Source: Prevotella sp. (lineage in GTDB: Bacteria; Bacteroidota; Bacteroidia; Bacteroidales; Bacteroidaceae). From it: a stretch of DNA of 64,000 nucleotides. Where the stretch lies: positions 46,049 to 110,048 of the forward strand of contig JAEEPZ010000001.1 in assembly GCA_016285055.1 (NCBI GenBank). The letters are read 5' to 3'. Shown in pieces: positions 3,042 to 42,552 of this stretch (positions are counted from its first letter, which is position 1; each line of letters opens with the position of its first letter). Below the pieces are notes generated by a model. It made no database searches, was not told where the DNA came from, and worked only from the letters and a program-made list of their open reading frames with translations. Both the position numbers and the translations under genes were made by a program.

Positions 3042-3070
3042 TCTTTTTTTGTTTTCGTTATTATTTATTT

Positions 3071-3224
3071 CGTTATTACGTTATCACGGTATTACGTTAT
3101 CACGCTTTCTCGTTATTACGTTATCACGTTATTACGTTATTACGCTTTTTCGTTATCACGTTATCACGTTATTACGTTATCACGCTTTTTCGTTATTACG
3201 TTATCACGTTATTACGTTATCACG
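3071..3224. repeat. Higher-order tandem repeat: four ~40-bp units built from 8-bp CGTTATYA
   Basis: Units 3071-3110, 3111-3150, 3151-3190 and 3191-3224 are near identical (CGTTATTACGTTATCACGTTATTACGTTATCACGCTTTTT). Confidence 0.95.
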
Positions 3225-11654: not shown

Positions 11655-13385
11655 TCAGAAAGGAACGTTAGAGGAAAACCTCATCCGCTCACCCGTCATA
11701 GGGTGTTGGAAGGCCAGCTCCGCTGCATGAAGGCAGAGGCGCTGGCCTTTCTCTGTGCCCCGGCCGTAGAGGCGGTCGCCCACGATGGGCACGCCAAGGC
11801 CCTGCTGATGGGCGCAGTGCATACGCAGCTGATGGGTGCGCCCGGTGTGCGGCGTCAGCGCCACACGGGTATGGCCGCCCTCATGTCCCAGCACCACATA
11901 GTCGGTCACGGCTGTTTTACCGTGCTCATAGTCTACCATCTGCCGCGGACGGTCGCCCACATCGGGGCGCAGTGGCAGGCTGACAGTTCCTTGTCCTTCC
12001 ACCATGCCGTCAAGCAGCGCTATATACATCTTATATATAACGCGCGCGTGAAACTGCCGTTGCAACAGCCGGTGTGCCTCGCGGTTTTTGGCCACTACCA
12101 TCAGGCCGCTGGTGTCCTGATCCAGGCGATGCACCATCAGCGCCTCTCCGTATCGTTGCCGCAGCAGGCTCTCCACAGAGCTGTCATCCGTCTTGCCCGG
12201 CACAGAGAGCATTCCCGCAGGTTTCTCGATGACGAGGAGCGCAGCATCCTCAAAGATAACCTTGATGAAACTCTCATCATAGGGCTTATGGGGCTCATAG
12301 GTCTTATAGGTCTTATAGGACTTATGGGGCTCATAGGACTTATAGGTCTTATAGGACTCATAGGTCTTATAGGACTCATAGGACAAATAGGACTTATTGG
12401 TCCCATCGCCCCCATGCCCTGACAGCATCCACTCAAGCACCGGCTTGCATTTCCCCCTGCACGCAGGGTAGAAGCAGCCGTGGTGACGCACCTCCTGCTT
12501 GGGCGATGCGCCCTGCCAGAACTCCGCCATGCACAGCGGCTTGAGCTGGTGGGCAAAGGCATATTGCAACAGCTTGGGCGCACAGCACTCGCCGGTGCCG
12601 GCTGGAGGCACTCGTTGCGGCGTAGCGGCAAAGATGTCGGTCAACGTGCGACTGTCGCCCTGAGCCCTGAGCATCACGAAATGGTCGAAGAGCCAGCGCT
12701 GTAAGGCATCCGACCGCCGATGACGTTCCTGCTTGAGGCGTGCGACCTCGTCCTGCAAAGGCCGCAGCAGTTCCTCAGTCTGTGCGATGCTGTTGCGCCA
12801 GCGCTGCTTCAGCCTGCGCAGCTCCGCCTTTTGAAACTGACTCTCACGAATCAACGCCTCATCGTCCATGCGATGGCTGCCCCCATCTGTTGAGCGCAGC
12901 TCATCACGCCGCCGTTTCTTCTCGGCCATTGCTTGCCGAAAGGCAGCAATCTCGTGCTCAGCCTGAGCCTGCTGATGTTGCAATGCTGCTTTCAAACCTG
13001 TGAAAGCATCATCCTGCTCCCGTCGGACAATGTCGGTGTTGATGGCCGTAATGTGTGCCTCCTCCGCTTTAAAGTATCCATCGGGCTGCAGATAGTCGAA
13101 CACAGCGGGCACAAACCAAGGCCAATCCTCACGCCCGCCCAGCTGTCCACTATAGGCTGCAAGGAATCCCACGGCGCCATCACTTCGTTGACACACCAAC
13201 GCGCCTAACATCTTGCCAAGCATGACCTCTCCCCAGAGCGGAGTGGCCTGCAGATGCTCGCACACCAGCCGTGACGCCTCCACGCACAGCGGGTGGGGCT
13301 CATAGTCGAAGGGATCGTTCAACTGAGTCGGCAACTCGCCCTCAAGCTTCATGGGGTGAAAAACGGTGTTCGTATCGTCTGTCAT
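11655..13385 (-). CDS. RluA-family pseudouridine synthase with long N-terminal coiled-coil extension
   Basis: MVHRLDQDTSGLMVVAKN catalytic motif; GRTHQLRMHCA; repeat-encoded Ser/Tyr/Lys-rich linker. Confidence 0.88.
   Translation of the reverse strand: MTDDTNTVFHPMKLEGELPTQLNDPFDYEPHPLCVEASRLVCEHLQATPLWGEVMLGKMLGALVCQRSDGAVGFLAAYSGQLGGREDWPWFVPAVFDYLQPDGYFKAEEAHITAINTDIVRREQDDAFTGLKAALQHQQAQAEHEIAAFRQAMAEKKRRRDELRSTDGGSHRMDDEALIRESQFQKAELRRLKQRWRNSIAQTEELLRPLQDEVARLKQERHRRSDALQRWLFDHFVMLRAQGDSRTLTDIFAATPQRVPPAGTGECCAPKLLQYAFAHQLKPLCMAEFWQGASPKQEVRHHGCFYPACRGKCKPVLEWMLSGHGGDGTNKSYLSYESYKTYESYKTYKSYEPHKSYKTYKTYEPHKPYDESFIKVIFEDAALLVIEKPAGMLSVPGKTDDSSVESLLRQRYGEALMVHRLDQDTSGLMVVAKNREAHRLLQRQFHARVIYKMYIALLDGMVEGQGTVSLPLRPDVGDRPRQMVDYEHGKTAVTDYVVLGHEGGHTRVALTPHTGRTHQLRMHCAHQQGLGVPIVGDRLYGRGTEKGQRLCLHAAELAFQHPMTGERMRFSSNVPF
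12275..12402. repeat. 9-bp tandem repeat (CTTATAGGA-type) in frame inside the RluA-like CDS
   Basis: GGGGCTCATAGGTCTTATAGGTCTTATAGGACTTATGGGGCTCATAGG... encodes SYKTYESYKTYKSYEPHKSYKTYKTYEPHKPY. Confidence 0.95.
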
Positions 13386-17900: not shown

Positions 17901-18143
17901 CGCTCTATGAACTAAATAGCAATTTCCGTGCAAATATAACATTTTCTCTTGGCACTGGCAAACTTTTTCCTGTTTTTCTGCTGAGCCCCACAAGAAAAAA
18001 AGGTTTCAAATATGGTTGCGCCTTTCGTTAGCAGAGTTAAAGCGCACCGTCCGAGAAAGATCCGCTGGCTTCGGAAAAAAAACCGAAACAGTCGGACAAA
18101 AATCCGAAGGCTTCGGATTTTCTTCAGATGGACTATCGGAACG

Positions 18144-18931: not shown

Positions 18932-19933
18932 ATGAAGAGACACTTACTTATCCTGTCGGCCCTCGCGATGTGCTTTGCAGCATCTTGGGCACAAGGTCCC
19001 AACGACTCGGGCTCCTACTACCAAAATGCCAGCGGCAAGAAAGGCGCCGAGCTGAAGACGGCCCTCAGCGGCATCATCTACGCCCGCAACGAAGGCGGCT
19101 CGCTCGCCAATGCCTACAAAGCACTGTGGGATCACTTCCGCAAGACCGACGCACGCCCCAACGGAACGGTGTGGGATATGTATTCCAACTTGCGCGAGAT
19201 GACCTTCGGCACTGACCAAGACACAGGAAGCGGTAATCAGGAGGGGCAATACTACAACCGCGAGCACTCCTTCCCCAACAGCTGGTTCGGGGGTAAGGTG
19301 ATGCCCATGTACACCGACCTTCACCACCTCTATCCCACAGACAAAGTGGTGAACAACAGGCGCTCCAACTACCCCTTCGGCGAGACCAACGGCGAGAGGT
19401 ACATGTCGGCCAACGGCTTCAGCAAGCTTGGCGCATGCACCTTTCCGGGCTATTCGGGCGTCGTCTTCGAGCCCAACGACGAGTACAAGGGTGACTTCGC
19501 GCGCACCTATTTCTATATGGTGACGTGCTACGAGGAGAAACTGGCCGATTGGTACACCGCTAACGATGACTGTCGGCCCACCCTCGACGGCAATGCCTAT
19601 CCCGGCCTCAGCGAGTGGCAGCTGAACATGCTGATGAAATGGGCAAAGGCCGACCCCGTCAGCGAGAAGGAGATCAACCGCAACAACGCCGTCTTCGCCA
19701 TTCAGGAGAACCGCAACCCCTTCATCGACTATCCCGGCTTGGAAGACTACATCTGGGGCGACAAGCAGACCATGCTCTTCCTCTACGACAACTACAACGA
19801 CACAGGCATCACCGAGATGGCTGCCGACGCTGCAGACCGCCATGTCATCTACGACCTCAGCGGTCGCCGCGTCACTCATGCCGTCAAGGGCGTTTACATC
19901 ATCGACAGGCGCAAGGTCATCATCAGGCCATAA
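18932..19933 (+). CDS. Secreted endonuclease I family nuclease with C-terminal sorting-like tail
   Basis: YYNREHSFPNSWFGG...DLHHLYPTDKVVNNRRSNYPFGE; C-terminal YDLSGRRVTHAVKGVYIIDRRKVIIRP resembles T9SS type A tails. Confidence 0.88.
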   Translation: MKRHLLILSALAMCFAASWAQGPNDSGSYYQNASGKKGAELKTALSGIIYARNEGGSLANAYKALWDHFRKTDARPNGTVWDMYSNLREMTFGTDQDTGSGNQEGQYYNREHSFPNSWFGGKVMPMYTDLHHLYPTDKVVNNRRSNYPFGETNGERYMSANGFSKLGACTFPGYSGVVFEPNDEYKGDFARTYFYMVTCYEEKLADWYTANDDCRPTLDGNAYPGLSEWQLNMLMKWAKADPVSEKEINRNNAVFAIQENRNPFIDYPGLEDYIWGDKQTMLFLYDNYNDTGITEMAADAADRHVIYDLSGRRVTHAVKGVYIIDRRKVIIRP

Positions 19934-19953
19934 AGTCATCATTTCCAAGATAA

Positions 19954-20147
19954 GCTCGCTTATTCGTACCTTTGGGCTAAGCCCGAATGTACTTTCGCTC
20001 GGAACAGCAAAAGAAAAACACGTTTTTCTTTTGCTGTTCGCTCGCTTATTCGTACCTTTGGACTACGTCCGAATGTACTTTCGCTCGGGACAGCAAAAGA
20101 AAAACGTGTTTTTCTTTTGCTGTTCGCTCGCTTATTCGTACCTTTGC
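19954..20147. repeat. Tandem 86-bp repeat (2.25 copies) carrying hairpins and -33/-7 promoter elements
   Basis: Copies 19954-20039 and 20040-20125, partial 20126-20147; near identical. Confidence 0.95.
20116..20146 (+). promoter_or_regulatory. Bacteroidetes promoter for the GH115 gene (TTTG-N19-TACCTTTG)
   Basis: TTTG at 20116-20119, 19-nt spacer, TACCTTTG at 20139-20146; ATG at 20183. Confidence 0.7.
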
Positions 20148-20182
20148 ACACACAACAGACAATCAATACAAACAAGAACAAT

Positions 20183-22681
20183 ATGCGAAGACTGATGATG
20201 TTGGTGGCCACGACGATGGCGCTCTGCTCGGCGGCATTGGCTGCTGAGCCGTTTGTTACTTTTCAGCCTGAGGCAGGCACTGTGCGGCTCTGCACACATG
20301 CCATCAGCTGTAGTGAGAACGATTTCGAAGCGGTGAAGATAGCCGTCGAAAGCCTGAAAGGCGATATGAAGCGTACCCTGACGGACAGGTACACAGCCGG
20401 CGACGGTCTGACGCTGCTCGTCGGCACGTTGGGCAAGAACGCTGACATAGACCGCATGGAGAAGCAAGGCCTGCTGCCCGACCTGAAGGGCAAGCGCGAG
20501 AAGTTTGTCATCACCACCGTTGGCCAGCAGCTGGTCATCGCGGGCAGCGACCGCCGAGGCACCGTCTACGGCATCTATGAGCTGAGCGAGCAGCTGGGCG
20601 TCTCGCCCTGGTACTGGTGGATGGACGTGCCCGTCATGTCGCACGCAGGCGCATATATAAAGAGTGGTGTGTACACCGACGGCGAACCTGCCGTGGAGTT
20701 CCGCGGACTCTTCCTCAACGACGAGGCACCCTGCCTCACCAGCTGGGTGAAGAACACGTGGGGCACCGACTATGGCGACCACCACTTCTACGAGAAGGTG
20801 TTTGAACTCATCCTGCGCCTGCGGGGCAACATGCTGTGGCCCGCCATGTGGGGATGGGCTTTCTATGCCGACGACCCTGAGAACGGCAAGACCGCCGACC
20901 GCATGGGCGTCATCATGGGCACCAGCCACCACGAGCCGATGGCACGCAATCATCAGGAGTATGCACGCCACAGAAGAGACTGGGGAGCCTGGAACTATGC
21001 CACCAACAAAGCCAACCTCGACCGATTCTTCCGCGAGGGCATCGAGCGCATGAAGGGCACCGAAGACATGGTAACCATCGGTATGCGCGGCGACGGCGAC
21101 GAGGCCATGAGCAAGGACGCCGACACAAAGCTGCTGCAGACCATCGTGGAAAATCAGCGCCGCATCATCAAGGAGGTGACGGGACGGCCGGCAAAGGAGA
21201 CGACACAGGTGTGGGCGCTCTACAAGGAGGTGCTCGACTATTACGACGCCGGCATGAGGGTGCCCGACGATGTCATCATGCTGCTCTGCGACGACAACTG
21301 GGGCAACGTGCGCCGCGTGCCCGATGACGGAAGCGGAAACGTGAGCAGCAACAGCAAGCTGAAGCCTCACAAGGGCGGATGGGGACTCTACTATCATGTG
21401 GACTACGTGGGCGCTCCGAGAAACACGAAGTGGCTCAACGTCACCCCGTCGCAGAACATGTGGGAGCAGCTCACACTGGCCTACGACTACGGCATCCGAC
21501 GCATGTGGATTCTCAACGTGGGCGACCTCAAGCCGATGGAATATCCCATCACGCTCTTCATGGACATGGCATGGAACCCCAGTGCCGTGGGGCACGACGT
21601 GGTGGCTACCCACACCGAGCCTTTCTGCACGCAGCAGTTCGGCCCCGCACAGGGCCAGGAGGCTGCACGCATCCTCAACCGCCTCTGCAAGCTCAACGGC
21701 CGCTGCACGCCTGAGATGCTCGATGCCCGCACATACAACGTGGAGACGGGCGAATGGCAGCAGGTAGCCGACGAATACATGCGCTTGGAGACGGAGGCCC
21801 TGCGCCAGTATCTCACCTTGCAGCCGCAGCAGCGCGACGCCTACCAACAGCTCATCCTCTTCCCCACACAGGCCATGGCCAACCTGCATCAGATGTACTT
21901 CGCACAGGCCATGAACCATAAGCTGGCTGCACAAGGCTCGCCCGACGCCAACATCTGGGCCGACCGTGTGGCCGAGGCTTTCCGCCGCGACTCGCTGCTC
22001 TGTGCCGCCTACAACCACGACATAGCCGGAGGCAAGTGGAACGGCATGATGACGCAGAAGCACATAGGCTACCGCTCGTGGAACGACAACTTCCCCCGCG
22101 ACATGATGCCGCGCGTGCAGCAGGTGAGCAACACGACGGCCGGCGGCTATGTCTTCAACATGAAGGACGGCACAGTGACGATGGAGGCTGAGCACTTCTT
22201 TGCTGCCACGCCGGCACCGAAGACCGAGTGGACGGTCATACCCGACATGGGCCGCACCCGCAGCGCCGTGGCTCTTATGCCTTACACCGAGGCGGTGAAC
22301 GGAGCCGAGCTTACCTACCGATGGAATGGGCAAAAACTGGCAAATGCAGAGGTGCGCGTGGTGCTGAAATCCACCCTCGACTTCCTCAACAAGGGCGGTC
22401 TCACGTTCACGGCACAGCTGGATGGCGGAGAGCCCGTCACCGTGAACTTCAACGAGAAGCTGAACGAGAAGCCTGAGAACATCTACTCCGCCTATTATCC
22501 CACCGTGGCACGCCGCGTAGTGGAGAGCAAGGTGCAGTTGCAAGGCAGCGACACGGAGGGTGAGCACACGCTGACCCTGCGTCCGCAAGACCCCGCCATC
22601 GTGTTCGAGAAAATCATTGTCACCACCACACCGCTGCCGCAGACCTACCTCTTCGGCCCAGAGTCGGAGTATAAGAAATGA
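20183..22681 (+). CDS. Glycoside hydrolase family 115 (alpha-glucuronidase-like)
   Basis: EFRGLFLNDEAPCLTSWVKNTWGTDYGDHHFYEKVFELILRLRGNMLWPAMWG...MGTSHHEPMARNHQEY; signal peptide. Confidence 0.9.
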   Translation: MRRLMMLVATTMALCSAALAAEPFVTFQPEAGTVRLCTHAISCSENDFEAVKIAVESLKGDMKRTLTDRYTAGDGLTLLVGTLGKNADIDRMEKQGLLPDLKGKREKFVITTVGQQLVIAGSDRRGTVYGIYELSEQLGVSPWYWWMDVPVMSHAGAYIKSGVYTDGEPAVEFRGLFLNDEAPCLTSWVKNTWGTDYGDHHFYEKVFELILRLRGNMLWPAMWGWAFYADDPENGKTADRMGVIMGTSHHEPMARNHQEYARHRRDWGAWNYATNKANLDRFFREGIERMKGTEDMVTIGMRGDGDEAMSKDADTKLLQTIVENQRRIIKEVTGRPAKETTQVWALYKEVLDYYDAGMRVPDDVIMLLCDDNWGNVRRVPDDGSGNVSSNSKLKPHKGGWGLYYHVDYVGAPRNTKWLNVTPSQNMWEQLTLAYDYGIRRMWILNVGDLKPMEYPITLFMDMAWNPSAVGHDVVATHTEPFCTQQFGPAQGQEAARILNRLCKLNGRCTPEMLDARTYNVETGEWQQVADEYMRLETEALRQYLTLQPQQRDAYQQLILFPTQAMANLHQMYFAQAMNHKLAAQGSPDANIWADRVAEAFRRDSLLCAAYNHDIAGGKWNGMMTQKHIGYRSWNDNFPRDMMPRVQQVSNTTAGGYVFNMKDGTVTMEAEHFFAATPAPKTEWTVIPDMGRTRSAVALMPYTEAVNGAELTYRWNGQKLANAEVRVVLKSTLDFLNKGGLTFTAQLDGGEPVTVNFNEKLNEKPENIYSAYYPTVARRVVESKVQLQGSDTEGEHTLTLRPQDPAIVFEKIIVTTTPLPQTYLFGPESEYKK

Positions 22682-24270: not shown

Positions 24271-24545
24271 GTGAAGGAGTTAAAGGAGGTTGTTTTGGAG
24301 TTAAAGGAGGTTGTTTTGGAGTTAAAGGAGTTAAAGGAGTTAAAGGAGTTAAAGACAATAGTTTTGCTATGGATTTCACTCCAGAGAAATAAAGTTTTTC
24401 ATGGAGAGTCATTTGTCTTTAACTCCTTTAACTCCTTTAACTCCTTTAACTCCAAAAACTCACTCCTTTAACTCCTTTAACTCCAAAAACTCACTCCTTT
24501 AACTCCCTTAACTCCTTTAACTCCTTTAACTCCTATAACTCCTAT
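24271..24545. repeat. 9-bp tandem repeat in two inverted arms (GAGTTAAAG / CTTTAACTC)
   Basis: 24271-24353 GGAGTTAAAGGAG repeats; 24417-24545 CTCCTTTAACTCC repeats; between convergent genes. Confidence 0.95.
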
Positions 24546-24554
24546 AATAGCTTC

Positions 24555-29535: not shown

Positions 29536-30504
29536 ATGCTGAGGGACTTCTTCTATATGACTAAGAGCGACAGGCGCATCATCCTGTCGATGGTGGCCGT
29601 GATAGGCGCTGCCATTGCCATCATCTACCTCGCTGGCGGCAAGAGCAGTTCGCCAACCGCCACCACGTCACCCGTCTCATCAGACTCATCAGTCCCATCA
29701 GCCCCATCAGTCCCATTAGACCCATCAGTCCCATCAGACCCATCAGTCTCATTAGACCCATCAGTCCCCTCCTCCCCCCACCTATTCTCCTTCGACCCCA
29801 ACACCGCCGACAGCACGGCGCTCCTGCGCTTAGGCCTCTCACGCTGGCAGGTGCGCAACATCGTCAGATACCGCGCAGCGGGCGGCGTCTACCGCACCAA
29901 GGAGGACTTTGCCCAACTCTATGGCCTCACCGTGAAGCAGTATCGCGAGCTGGAGCCTTACATCCACATCGGCACCGACTATCAGCCGGCCGCCACGCTC
30001 TTCCCCGACAGAGCGCACAGGTATGCCAACAGGGAAAACAGCTACGCTGACAACAGGGTTGGGCACAGCGACACCACGCTCGCGTCACGCCACCGCATGA
30101 AACTCACCGACGGCGAGACCATCGACCTGGCCACCGCCGACACCACGCTGCTGCAGCGCGTGCCAGGCATAGGCCCTTATTATGCGCGTCGCATCGTGGA
30201 CTACCGACAGCGTTTAGGAGGCTATGCCAGCCTGTCGCAGCTCGATGAAATCGATGGTTTTCCTTCTGAGGCTCTGTCTTTTCTCACACTCGAACCTGGG
30301 GCTGCGGCTGTGGAGAAACTCAATGTGAACAGTCTTTCACTCAACGAGCTGAAGCGCCATCCTTACATCAATTACTATCAGGCACGCGCCATCGTGGACT
30401 ACCGACGGCAGAACGGCCCCATCGCCGACCTCAGCGAGCTGCGTCTGCTGCCCGATTTCGGCGATGAGGCCATCAAAAGGCTGCGGCCCTACGTCGCTTA
30501 CTGA
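29536..30504 (+). CDS. Helix-hairpin-helix (ComEA-like) domain protein
   Basis: N-terminal TM; LQRVPGIGPYYARRIVDYRQRLGGYASLSQL; further HhH repeats; repeat-encoded linker. Confidence 0.88.
   Translation: MLRDFFYMTKSDRRIILSMVAVIGAAIAIIYLAGGKSSSPTATTSPVSSDSSVPSAPSVPLDPSVPSDPSVSLDPSVPSSPHLFSFDPNTADSTALLRLGLSRWQVRNIVRYRAAGGVYRTKEDFAQLYGLTVKQYRELEPYIHIGTDYQPAATLFPDRAHRYANRENSYADNRVGHSDTTLASRHRMKLTDGETIDLATADTTLLQRVPGIGPYYARRIVDYRQRLGGYASLSQLDEIDGFPSEALSFLTLEPGAAAVEKLNVNSLSLNELKRHPYINYYQARAIVDYRRQNGPIADLSELRLLPDFGDEAIKRLRPYVAY
29676..29770. repeat. 9-bp tandem repeat (CCCATCAGT-type) in the HhH CDS linker
   Basis: CATCAGTCCCATCAGCCCCATCAGTCCCATTAGACCC... encodes SVPSAPSVPLDPSVPSDPSVSLDPSVPS. Confidence 0.9.
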
Positions 30505-30677
30505 TTTGCATACCGCTCCAATATGGGGTGGGTTTTGCTAATAGTTTGCGCAGTAAAAAGTCATGCTGTGGACTAAAAAAACAAGGGCTTGTCGTTTTAC
30601 TGGTTTTTCAGCCCGCATGTGTCTGTAACCTCTTCGTTTTTATCACTTTTAAGCTGTCCGTATTTTTTCTTTACATT

Positions 30678-30774
30678 TCGGACTTTTTGTCCGAAGCCTT
30701 CGGACGAACAGTCCGAAGCCTTCGGACGAACAGTCCGAAGCCTTCGGACAGAGTGTCCGAAGCCTTCGGACTTT
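30678..30774. repeat. Tandem hairpin repeat GTCCGAAGCCTTCGGAC-GAACA (4 copies)
   Basis: Four GTCCGAAGCCTTCGGAC hairpins at 22-bp spacing, ending in CTTTTTT. Confidence 0.92.
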
Positions 30775-30814
30775 TTTGAGGAAGCCAGATTATAAGACAG
30801 GTCGCGCAGCAAGA

Positions 30815-41967: not shown

Positions 41968-42552
41968 TGACATAGCTGCGTCGCTGATACCGCTACGCGG
42001 CCTGAGAGAAAACCAATAAAAACCAATAAAAACAAGAAAAACAATATTGGTACAATAGCTATCGCCTTGCCCGCCGCATAGCTCAATGCGCAGCCATCCC
42101 CTCCCCTTGAAGGGAGGGGAGTGCCTCACAGGGTTCCTGCAGCGGGCAAGGCGCATTGAGCTACGCGAAGGGCAAGGCGCAGCGAAAAGTCCCGAAGGGA
42201 CGATAGAACTCGGGTAACGAACTGACCTGTTTCGCGCCATAACTATGTCATCCATCCGTACAGCATGTGTTTTTTTTGCCATCTGGGGCTCCGTCCATCC
42301 CTCTGCACCAAAATCGGATGCTTTTATGCAAAAAGTTTCCTGGCGAGAAACCTTTGGTTTCCTGCCGAGAAACCGATGGTTTCTCGGCAGGAAACTTTTA
42401 GAACCCATGCTGCCTTGAAACTGCAGGATTCTCACATGGGTAGAAATCCGTAGAAAAGCTATTGTACCAATTTGTTTTTCTTGTTTTTATTGGTTTTTTC
42501 TCAGGCCGCTTCGCGGTATCAACCCACATAGATAGCGCAGAAACTATGTCAC
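41968..42552. repeat. Foldback/MITE-like element with ~95-bp imperfect terminal inverted repeats
   Basis: 41968-42061 (GTGACATAG...GCGGCCTGAGAGAAAACCAATAAAAACC...GGTACAATAGCT) is the reverse complement of 42457-42552. Confidence 0.85.
42331..42399. repeat. Nested inverted repeat inside the foldback element
   Basis: Arms AAAAGTTTCCTGGCGAGAAACC / GGTTTCTCGGCAGGAAACTTTT with a third internal copy. Confidence 0.85.

Follow-up and report, generated by a model that had tools for sequence, protein, structure and literature searches.

An 86-bp repeat forms a tandem array at positions 19954-20146 of the Prevotella stretch analysed here (64,000 nucleotides, hereafter the window), directly upstream of a GH115 family gene (832 aa, 20183-22681, + strand). 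We consider it fairly likely that these are tandem promoter units in which a palindrome, H1, serves as a DNA element of the promoter, that template switching together with slippage or unequal recombination shapes the array, and that the last promoter, P3, drives GH115. On this reading the array would be a minisatellite of a promoter unit that has spread through Prevotella. Each unit junction would be a sigma-ABfr-type promoter: an A-tract comes first, then a T-tract that ends with the -33 TTTG, and TACCTTTG follows after a conserved spacer of 19 nt. The A-tract and the T-tract would be the two arms of H1.

Anatomy of the array

The tandem repeat reported upstream of GH115 by an earlier sequence-only reading is real. 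Tandem Repeats Finder (TRF) gave a period of 86, 2.2 copies and a score of 344, and the array consists of unit A (19954-20039), unit B (20040-20125) and a third, partial copy of 21 bp, GCTCGCTTATTCGTACCTTTG (20126-20146), which is the promoter end adjoining GH115. All lie on the + strand. The two full units are direct repeats of 93% identity with six differences, and unit A runs from a -7-type box in the 5' arm of a hairpin, H2, through the linker TTTCGCTCGG to H1. Since AAAAGAAAAACNNGTTTTTCTTTT with up to 3 mismatches was found within the window only at the array (0 expected), and since the folded stretch of the array has a z of -11.4, the array is not a product of chance. An endonuclease I family gene on the same strand as GH115 (18932-19933, +) ends 20 nt before unit A, and the ATG of GH115 at 20183 lies 36 nt past the last -7 box.

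H1 of unit A (20002-20039, +) has an A-rich arm (20002-20019), a 2-nt spacer AC and a T-rich arm containing TTTG (20022-20039). The hairpin had been described with a stem of 15 bp; it exists, but its arms are 18 bp long in A, and in B (20088-20125, +) there are 16 perfect bp (20090-20105/20108-20123) plus one G.T. The spacer in B is GT, so that the loop is inverted between the copies as had been noticed, and the two H1s are perfect reverse complements over 36 nt. H2 reads GTACCTTTGGGC(TAA)GCCCGAATGTAC in unit A (19966-19992, +) and GTACCTTTGGAC(TAC)GTCCGAATGTAC in unit B (20052-20078, +). Comparison of GTACcTTTGGGC-TAA-GCCCGAAtGTAC in A with GTACcTTTGGAC-TAC-GTCCGAAtGTAC in B shows one loop change and one two-sided change from G-C to A-T, carried by B, which is the compensatory pair previously noted.

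The window contains other palindromic tandem repeats at 30677-30776, 18056-18117 and 42335-42395, for example TGTCCGAAGCCTTCGGACGAAC, and CCGAAGCCTTCGGA tracts resembling them occur near another locus (L017). More short-period tandem arrays are found at 3056-3224, 12277-12406, 24276-24547 and 29674-29768.

Predicted promoters of the array

Promoters recognised by sigma-ABfr in Bacteroides have TTTG at -33 and TAnnTTTG at -7 (PMC7366714). TTTG, 19 nt and TACCTTTG had been proposed for every copy, and a Bacteroidetes-type promoter of this form is indeed present at the end of each unit. P2 (20030-20060, +) has TTTG at 20030-20033 and TACCTTTG at 20053-20060, a complete consensus followed by H2 instead of CA. 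P3 (20116-20148, +), the terminal one and the best candidate, has TTTG at 20116-20119, TACCTTTG at 20139-20146 and CA at 20147-20148. The pattern fails at the first -7 box (19967-19974, +), where TCCA (19944-19947) stands in place of TTTG, and the complete predicted promoters in the array are thus two, not three. P2 and P3 share both boxes and the 19-nt spacer with sigma-ABfr promoters (PMC7366714) and differ from them in the conserved sequence of the spacer, the A-tract/T-tract palindrome at a fixed position and the tandem repetition. A generic sigma-70 scan found no promoter, as expected for the Bacteroidetes phylum.

Sixty-eight tandem units were collected from many loci; they are not a random sample. 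The -7 box was intact in the terminal copy of 50 of 51 arrays compared to 49 of 68 upstream boxes (p = 1e-4, with kinship among loci ignored), and the -33 TTTG was retained in 47/51 terminal versus 31/51 first copies of the collected arrays (p = 3e-4). The -7 box is followed mostly by CA in terminal copies and by GC or AC in upstream copies. For reference, promoters in a 1.2-Mb sample of the related genome G315 (MAG RUG13587), analysed with a simple gene caller, have C in 90% and A in 77% of cases after the -7 box. These comparisons indicate that constraint is strongest on the terminal promoter. Because the terminal TTTG and -7 boxes are better kept and the -7 boxes are mostly followed by CA, we rank 20116-20146 first and infer that it most likely drives GH115; 20030-20060 may provide a second start, and the box at 19967 is probably vestigial.

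A family of units in Prevotella

The genome-wide search suggested by the sequence-only reading returned the promoter 21-mer (up to 3 mismatches) at 38 sites in the same genome, as a rule some tens of nt upstream of a start codon, and the reversed pattern at 0. The palindrome core AAAGAAAAANNNNTTTTTCTTT was found in 71 places versus 14 for a control, and at nearly all of the loci inspected a TAnnTTTG box follows it at a distance of exactly 21 nt. Matches to the exact long pattern are confined to MAGs of Prevotella or Prevotellaceae; where a source was recorded, several of these came from ruminants. The unit's left half, CGAANGTACTTTCGCTCGG, is conserved across genomes: of 299 Prevotella genomes, 142 contain it, with almost no matches for a control. 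Elsewhere in the family its distribution is patchy; a family-wide sample of 151 genomes had it in 21, some of which carry as many as 39 copies. In the G315 sample, a same-strand gene lies downstream of 36/37 promoter 18-mers and 19/21 unit left halves. Homologous promoter sequence is located 5' of non-homologous genes, as is expected of a putative mobile promoter. A literature search, which covered part of the literature, met no description of the unit in Prevotella, and the family is apparently undescribed so far.

None of the inspected GH115 orthologues (60-88% identical) has the unit; they are preceded by a plain single promoter or by none. The nearest one found, with 88% amino acid identity in the aligned part, has a TAATTTTG promoter and no array. 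On these results GH115-specific regulation was rejected as the basis of the unit, and the array counts as a lineage-specific trait of the present GH115 locus.

Placement of H1 relative to the promoter

The G315 sample contains 260 promoter-like boxes, for which the upstream gene is co-directional in 131 cases and divergent in 129. Strong palindromes were found 5' of 24 boxes, with the centre exactly 32.0 nt from TAnnTTTG in 17 and 31.5 nt in 2; mononucleotide shuffles produced no palindrome of such strength. These 19 fixed-distance palindromes follow 8 co-directional and 11 divergent upstream genes, counts that are small. The 5 strong palindromes at other distances all follow co-directional genes and include typical GC-stem/T-tail terminators. 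The same A-rich (-43 to -37) and T-rich (-24 to -22) tracts, counted from the T of TA, recur in the 211 promoters that lack a palindrome, and the arms of H1 thus coincide with general promoter tracts. The fixed placement, the irrelevance of upstream gene direction and the tracts shared with ordinary promoters argue that H1 is a promoter element rather than part of a terminator-promoter unit. H1 is probably promoter DNA and most likely acts, as double-stranded DNA, as a UP-element-like A/T element. In G315, C9 gene pairs 31/32 and 157/158 are each separated by a gap that holds divergent promoters and H1-type palindromes; at 157/158, one H1 is common to both promoters and each takes one arm as its T-tract.

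Covariation and changes in copy number

Covariation among homologous copies had been set as a test of the structure. The inner pairs of H2 are 95% Watson-Crick among 37 distinct sequences, compared to 47% after random re-pairing of the arms between loci (at most 65% in any of 2000 trials); for the outer arms of H1 the excess is smaller (61% vs 49%). The arms therefore change together between loci. This part of the argument from the compensatory change was upheld; as proof of selected structure it does not suffice, since DNA template switching between inverted repeats makes the arms alike and flips the spacer (PMC8604942), and it can also preserve hairpins (PMC8794818). The same pattern of homogenised arms and inverted loops would result without any selection on RNA structure.

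One locus, L008, could be compared between this genome and G315, where its counterpart is L099. The two are identical over 120 nt but for the loop, CGTG versus CACG, and the shared locus is 98% identical upstream. L099 has one 85-86-bp unit more. As regards transposition or an empty site, only this one-unit difference was observed, and L008 versus L099 is the one case of a locus where close relatives have different numbers of copies, as in a minisatellite. Within arrays, the identity of units was at least 0.87 in 15 of 17 pairs, versus a median of 0.85 between arrays of one genome. This likeness fits local duplication; dispersal of units to unrelated genes also happened.

We infer that the perfect palindromy of H1, the covariation of the H2 arms and the inverted loops came largely from replication template switching between inverted repeats, and that slippage, or unequal recombination from one unit to another, shifts the copy number. 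Arm homogenisation and spacer inversion, seen in A versus B and in L008 versus L099, are shared with quasipalindrome template switching (PMC8604942, PMC8794818, PMC7202029), which differs in being a mutational process and not an element, and which does not explain a conserved mismatch between the arms of H2. On the reverse strand, the 3' arm of H2 reads TA..TTCG, not TTTG, in 50 of 52 readable cases. This T-opposite-G mismatch is almost never homogenised, as it should be unless selected, so that plain template switching is insufficient as an explanation. The mismatch suggests selection on H2 or against an antisense promoter.

Alternative explanations

In a terminator-promoter unit, as the sequence-only reading had suggested, H1 would end upstream transcripts and the next promoter would restart transcription. 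H1 does fold as RNA (about -20 kcal/mol) with a U-rich 3' arm, and the upstream gene here is co-directional and ends just before the array. However, H1 is found equally often where the upstream gene is divergent and calls for no terminator, and its distance from the -7 box is constant; the GC-stem/T-tail terminators differ in this and all have co-directional genes. Its stem is A/T-rich and no T-tract, hence no U-tract in RNA, follows it, so that it lacks the features of an intrinsic terminator. We rejected a terminator role on the placement of H1 and regard this explanation as very improbable. We give just as little credence to the idea that the transcribed hairpins are a regulatory or stabilising RNA leader whose covariation reflects selection on RNA pairing. 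The strong covariation of H2 would fit, as would its persistent T.G pair, which is a G.U wobble in RNA; the same covariation is, however, expected from template switching. Transcripts from the terminal promoter would hold neither hairpin, H2 overlaps the -7 box and is largely upstream of its own transcript's start, and an Rfam search gave only chance matches below threshold, with no family at gathering score.

The unit could also be a short mobile element, MITE-like or a mobile promoter, that inserts 5' of genes with its own promoter, tandem copies being repeated insertions. Its occurrence at non-homologous loci in up to about 40 copies per genome, its absence upstream of the nearest GH115 orthologue and the many arrays that begin at the same base, NCTCGCTTATTCG, speak for this explanation, which we nevertheless consider unlikely. 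Inverted repeats are internal only, neither simple terminal inverted repeats nor target-site duplications were recognised (the latter by eye in the loci inspected), and a search of plasmid, phage and viral-contig sequences did not find the unit. Neighbouring units resemble each other more than scattered ones do, which is the pattern of local duplication. Y1/RAYT transposases are absent from G110 and G194, with 37 and 34 copies, and present in G004, G010 and G016, with none; a REP/RAYT system was rejected on this lack of correlation. Correia elements of Neisseria and REP/REPIN sequences are, like the Prevotella unit, short palindromic intergenic repeats in many copies, and Correia elements can carry promoters. 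The Prevotella unit differs from them in that it is uncorrelated with RAYT, lies nearly always 5' of genes and is in promoter register. The closest precedent for its spread is BrickBuilt of Porphyromonas gingivalis, a minisatellite-MITE with promoter activity in reporter assays and a putative mobile promoter (PMC4596501). Both occur in Bacteroidales as short tandem repeats in a dispersed intergenic element and vary in copy number, between strains in the case of BrickBuilt. BrickBuilt has 23-nt repeats within a leader/tail MITE, IS5-like terminal inverted repeats and bidirectional promoters (PMC4596501), whereas the Prevotella unit is 73-88 bp long with one forward promoter each and no such ends recognised.

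Possible function and related repeats

The preferred reading, an array of promoter units, places the family within the promoter architecture of a genus that is dominant in rumen and gut. It also provides a clear case of covariation, a pattern usually read as demonstrating RNA structure, for which there is a mutational alternative, open to testing through comparison of tandem copies and of close relatives. A more speculative idea, which we put forward with considerable doubt, is that the widespread units are an evolutionary tuning knob, with the conserved left half (H2 and its T.G mismatch) having its own function, for example the blocking of antisense initiation. Whole promoter modules 5' of many genes would be added, deleted and re-perfected by replication slippage and by template switching at the built-in palindromes, and these changes would alter expression levels. 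Should copy number indeed tune expression, Prevotella would have in such arrays a simple way of varying its sugar-degrading enzymes and its housekeeping genes.

The lengths of the 68 units are bimodal (73-76 and 83-88 bp). The two classes differ by roughly one helical turn, and the short class has another H1 with a CAAATAAATTTG core. At L101 (upstream of 5661), the promoter spacer that comes next adjoins one H2 directly, which looks like a deletion of H1 between the flanking direct repeats TTTCGCTCG. A second short repeat of about 70 bp, TCCATATAACAAATTTGTT...TATTCGGGACTTCATTTTGGGCCCTGCAAAATTCGTTACT, with its own inverted repeats, is located between TTTCGCT and CGGAAAAG of the promoter unit. 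It is present at L002, L029, L077, L078 and L092 in this genome and at L235, L238 (19045-19122), L244, L246, L251 and L267 in G315, and it is tandem once among its loci.
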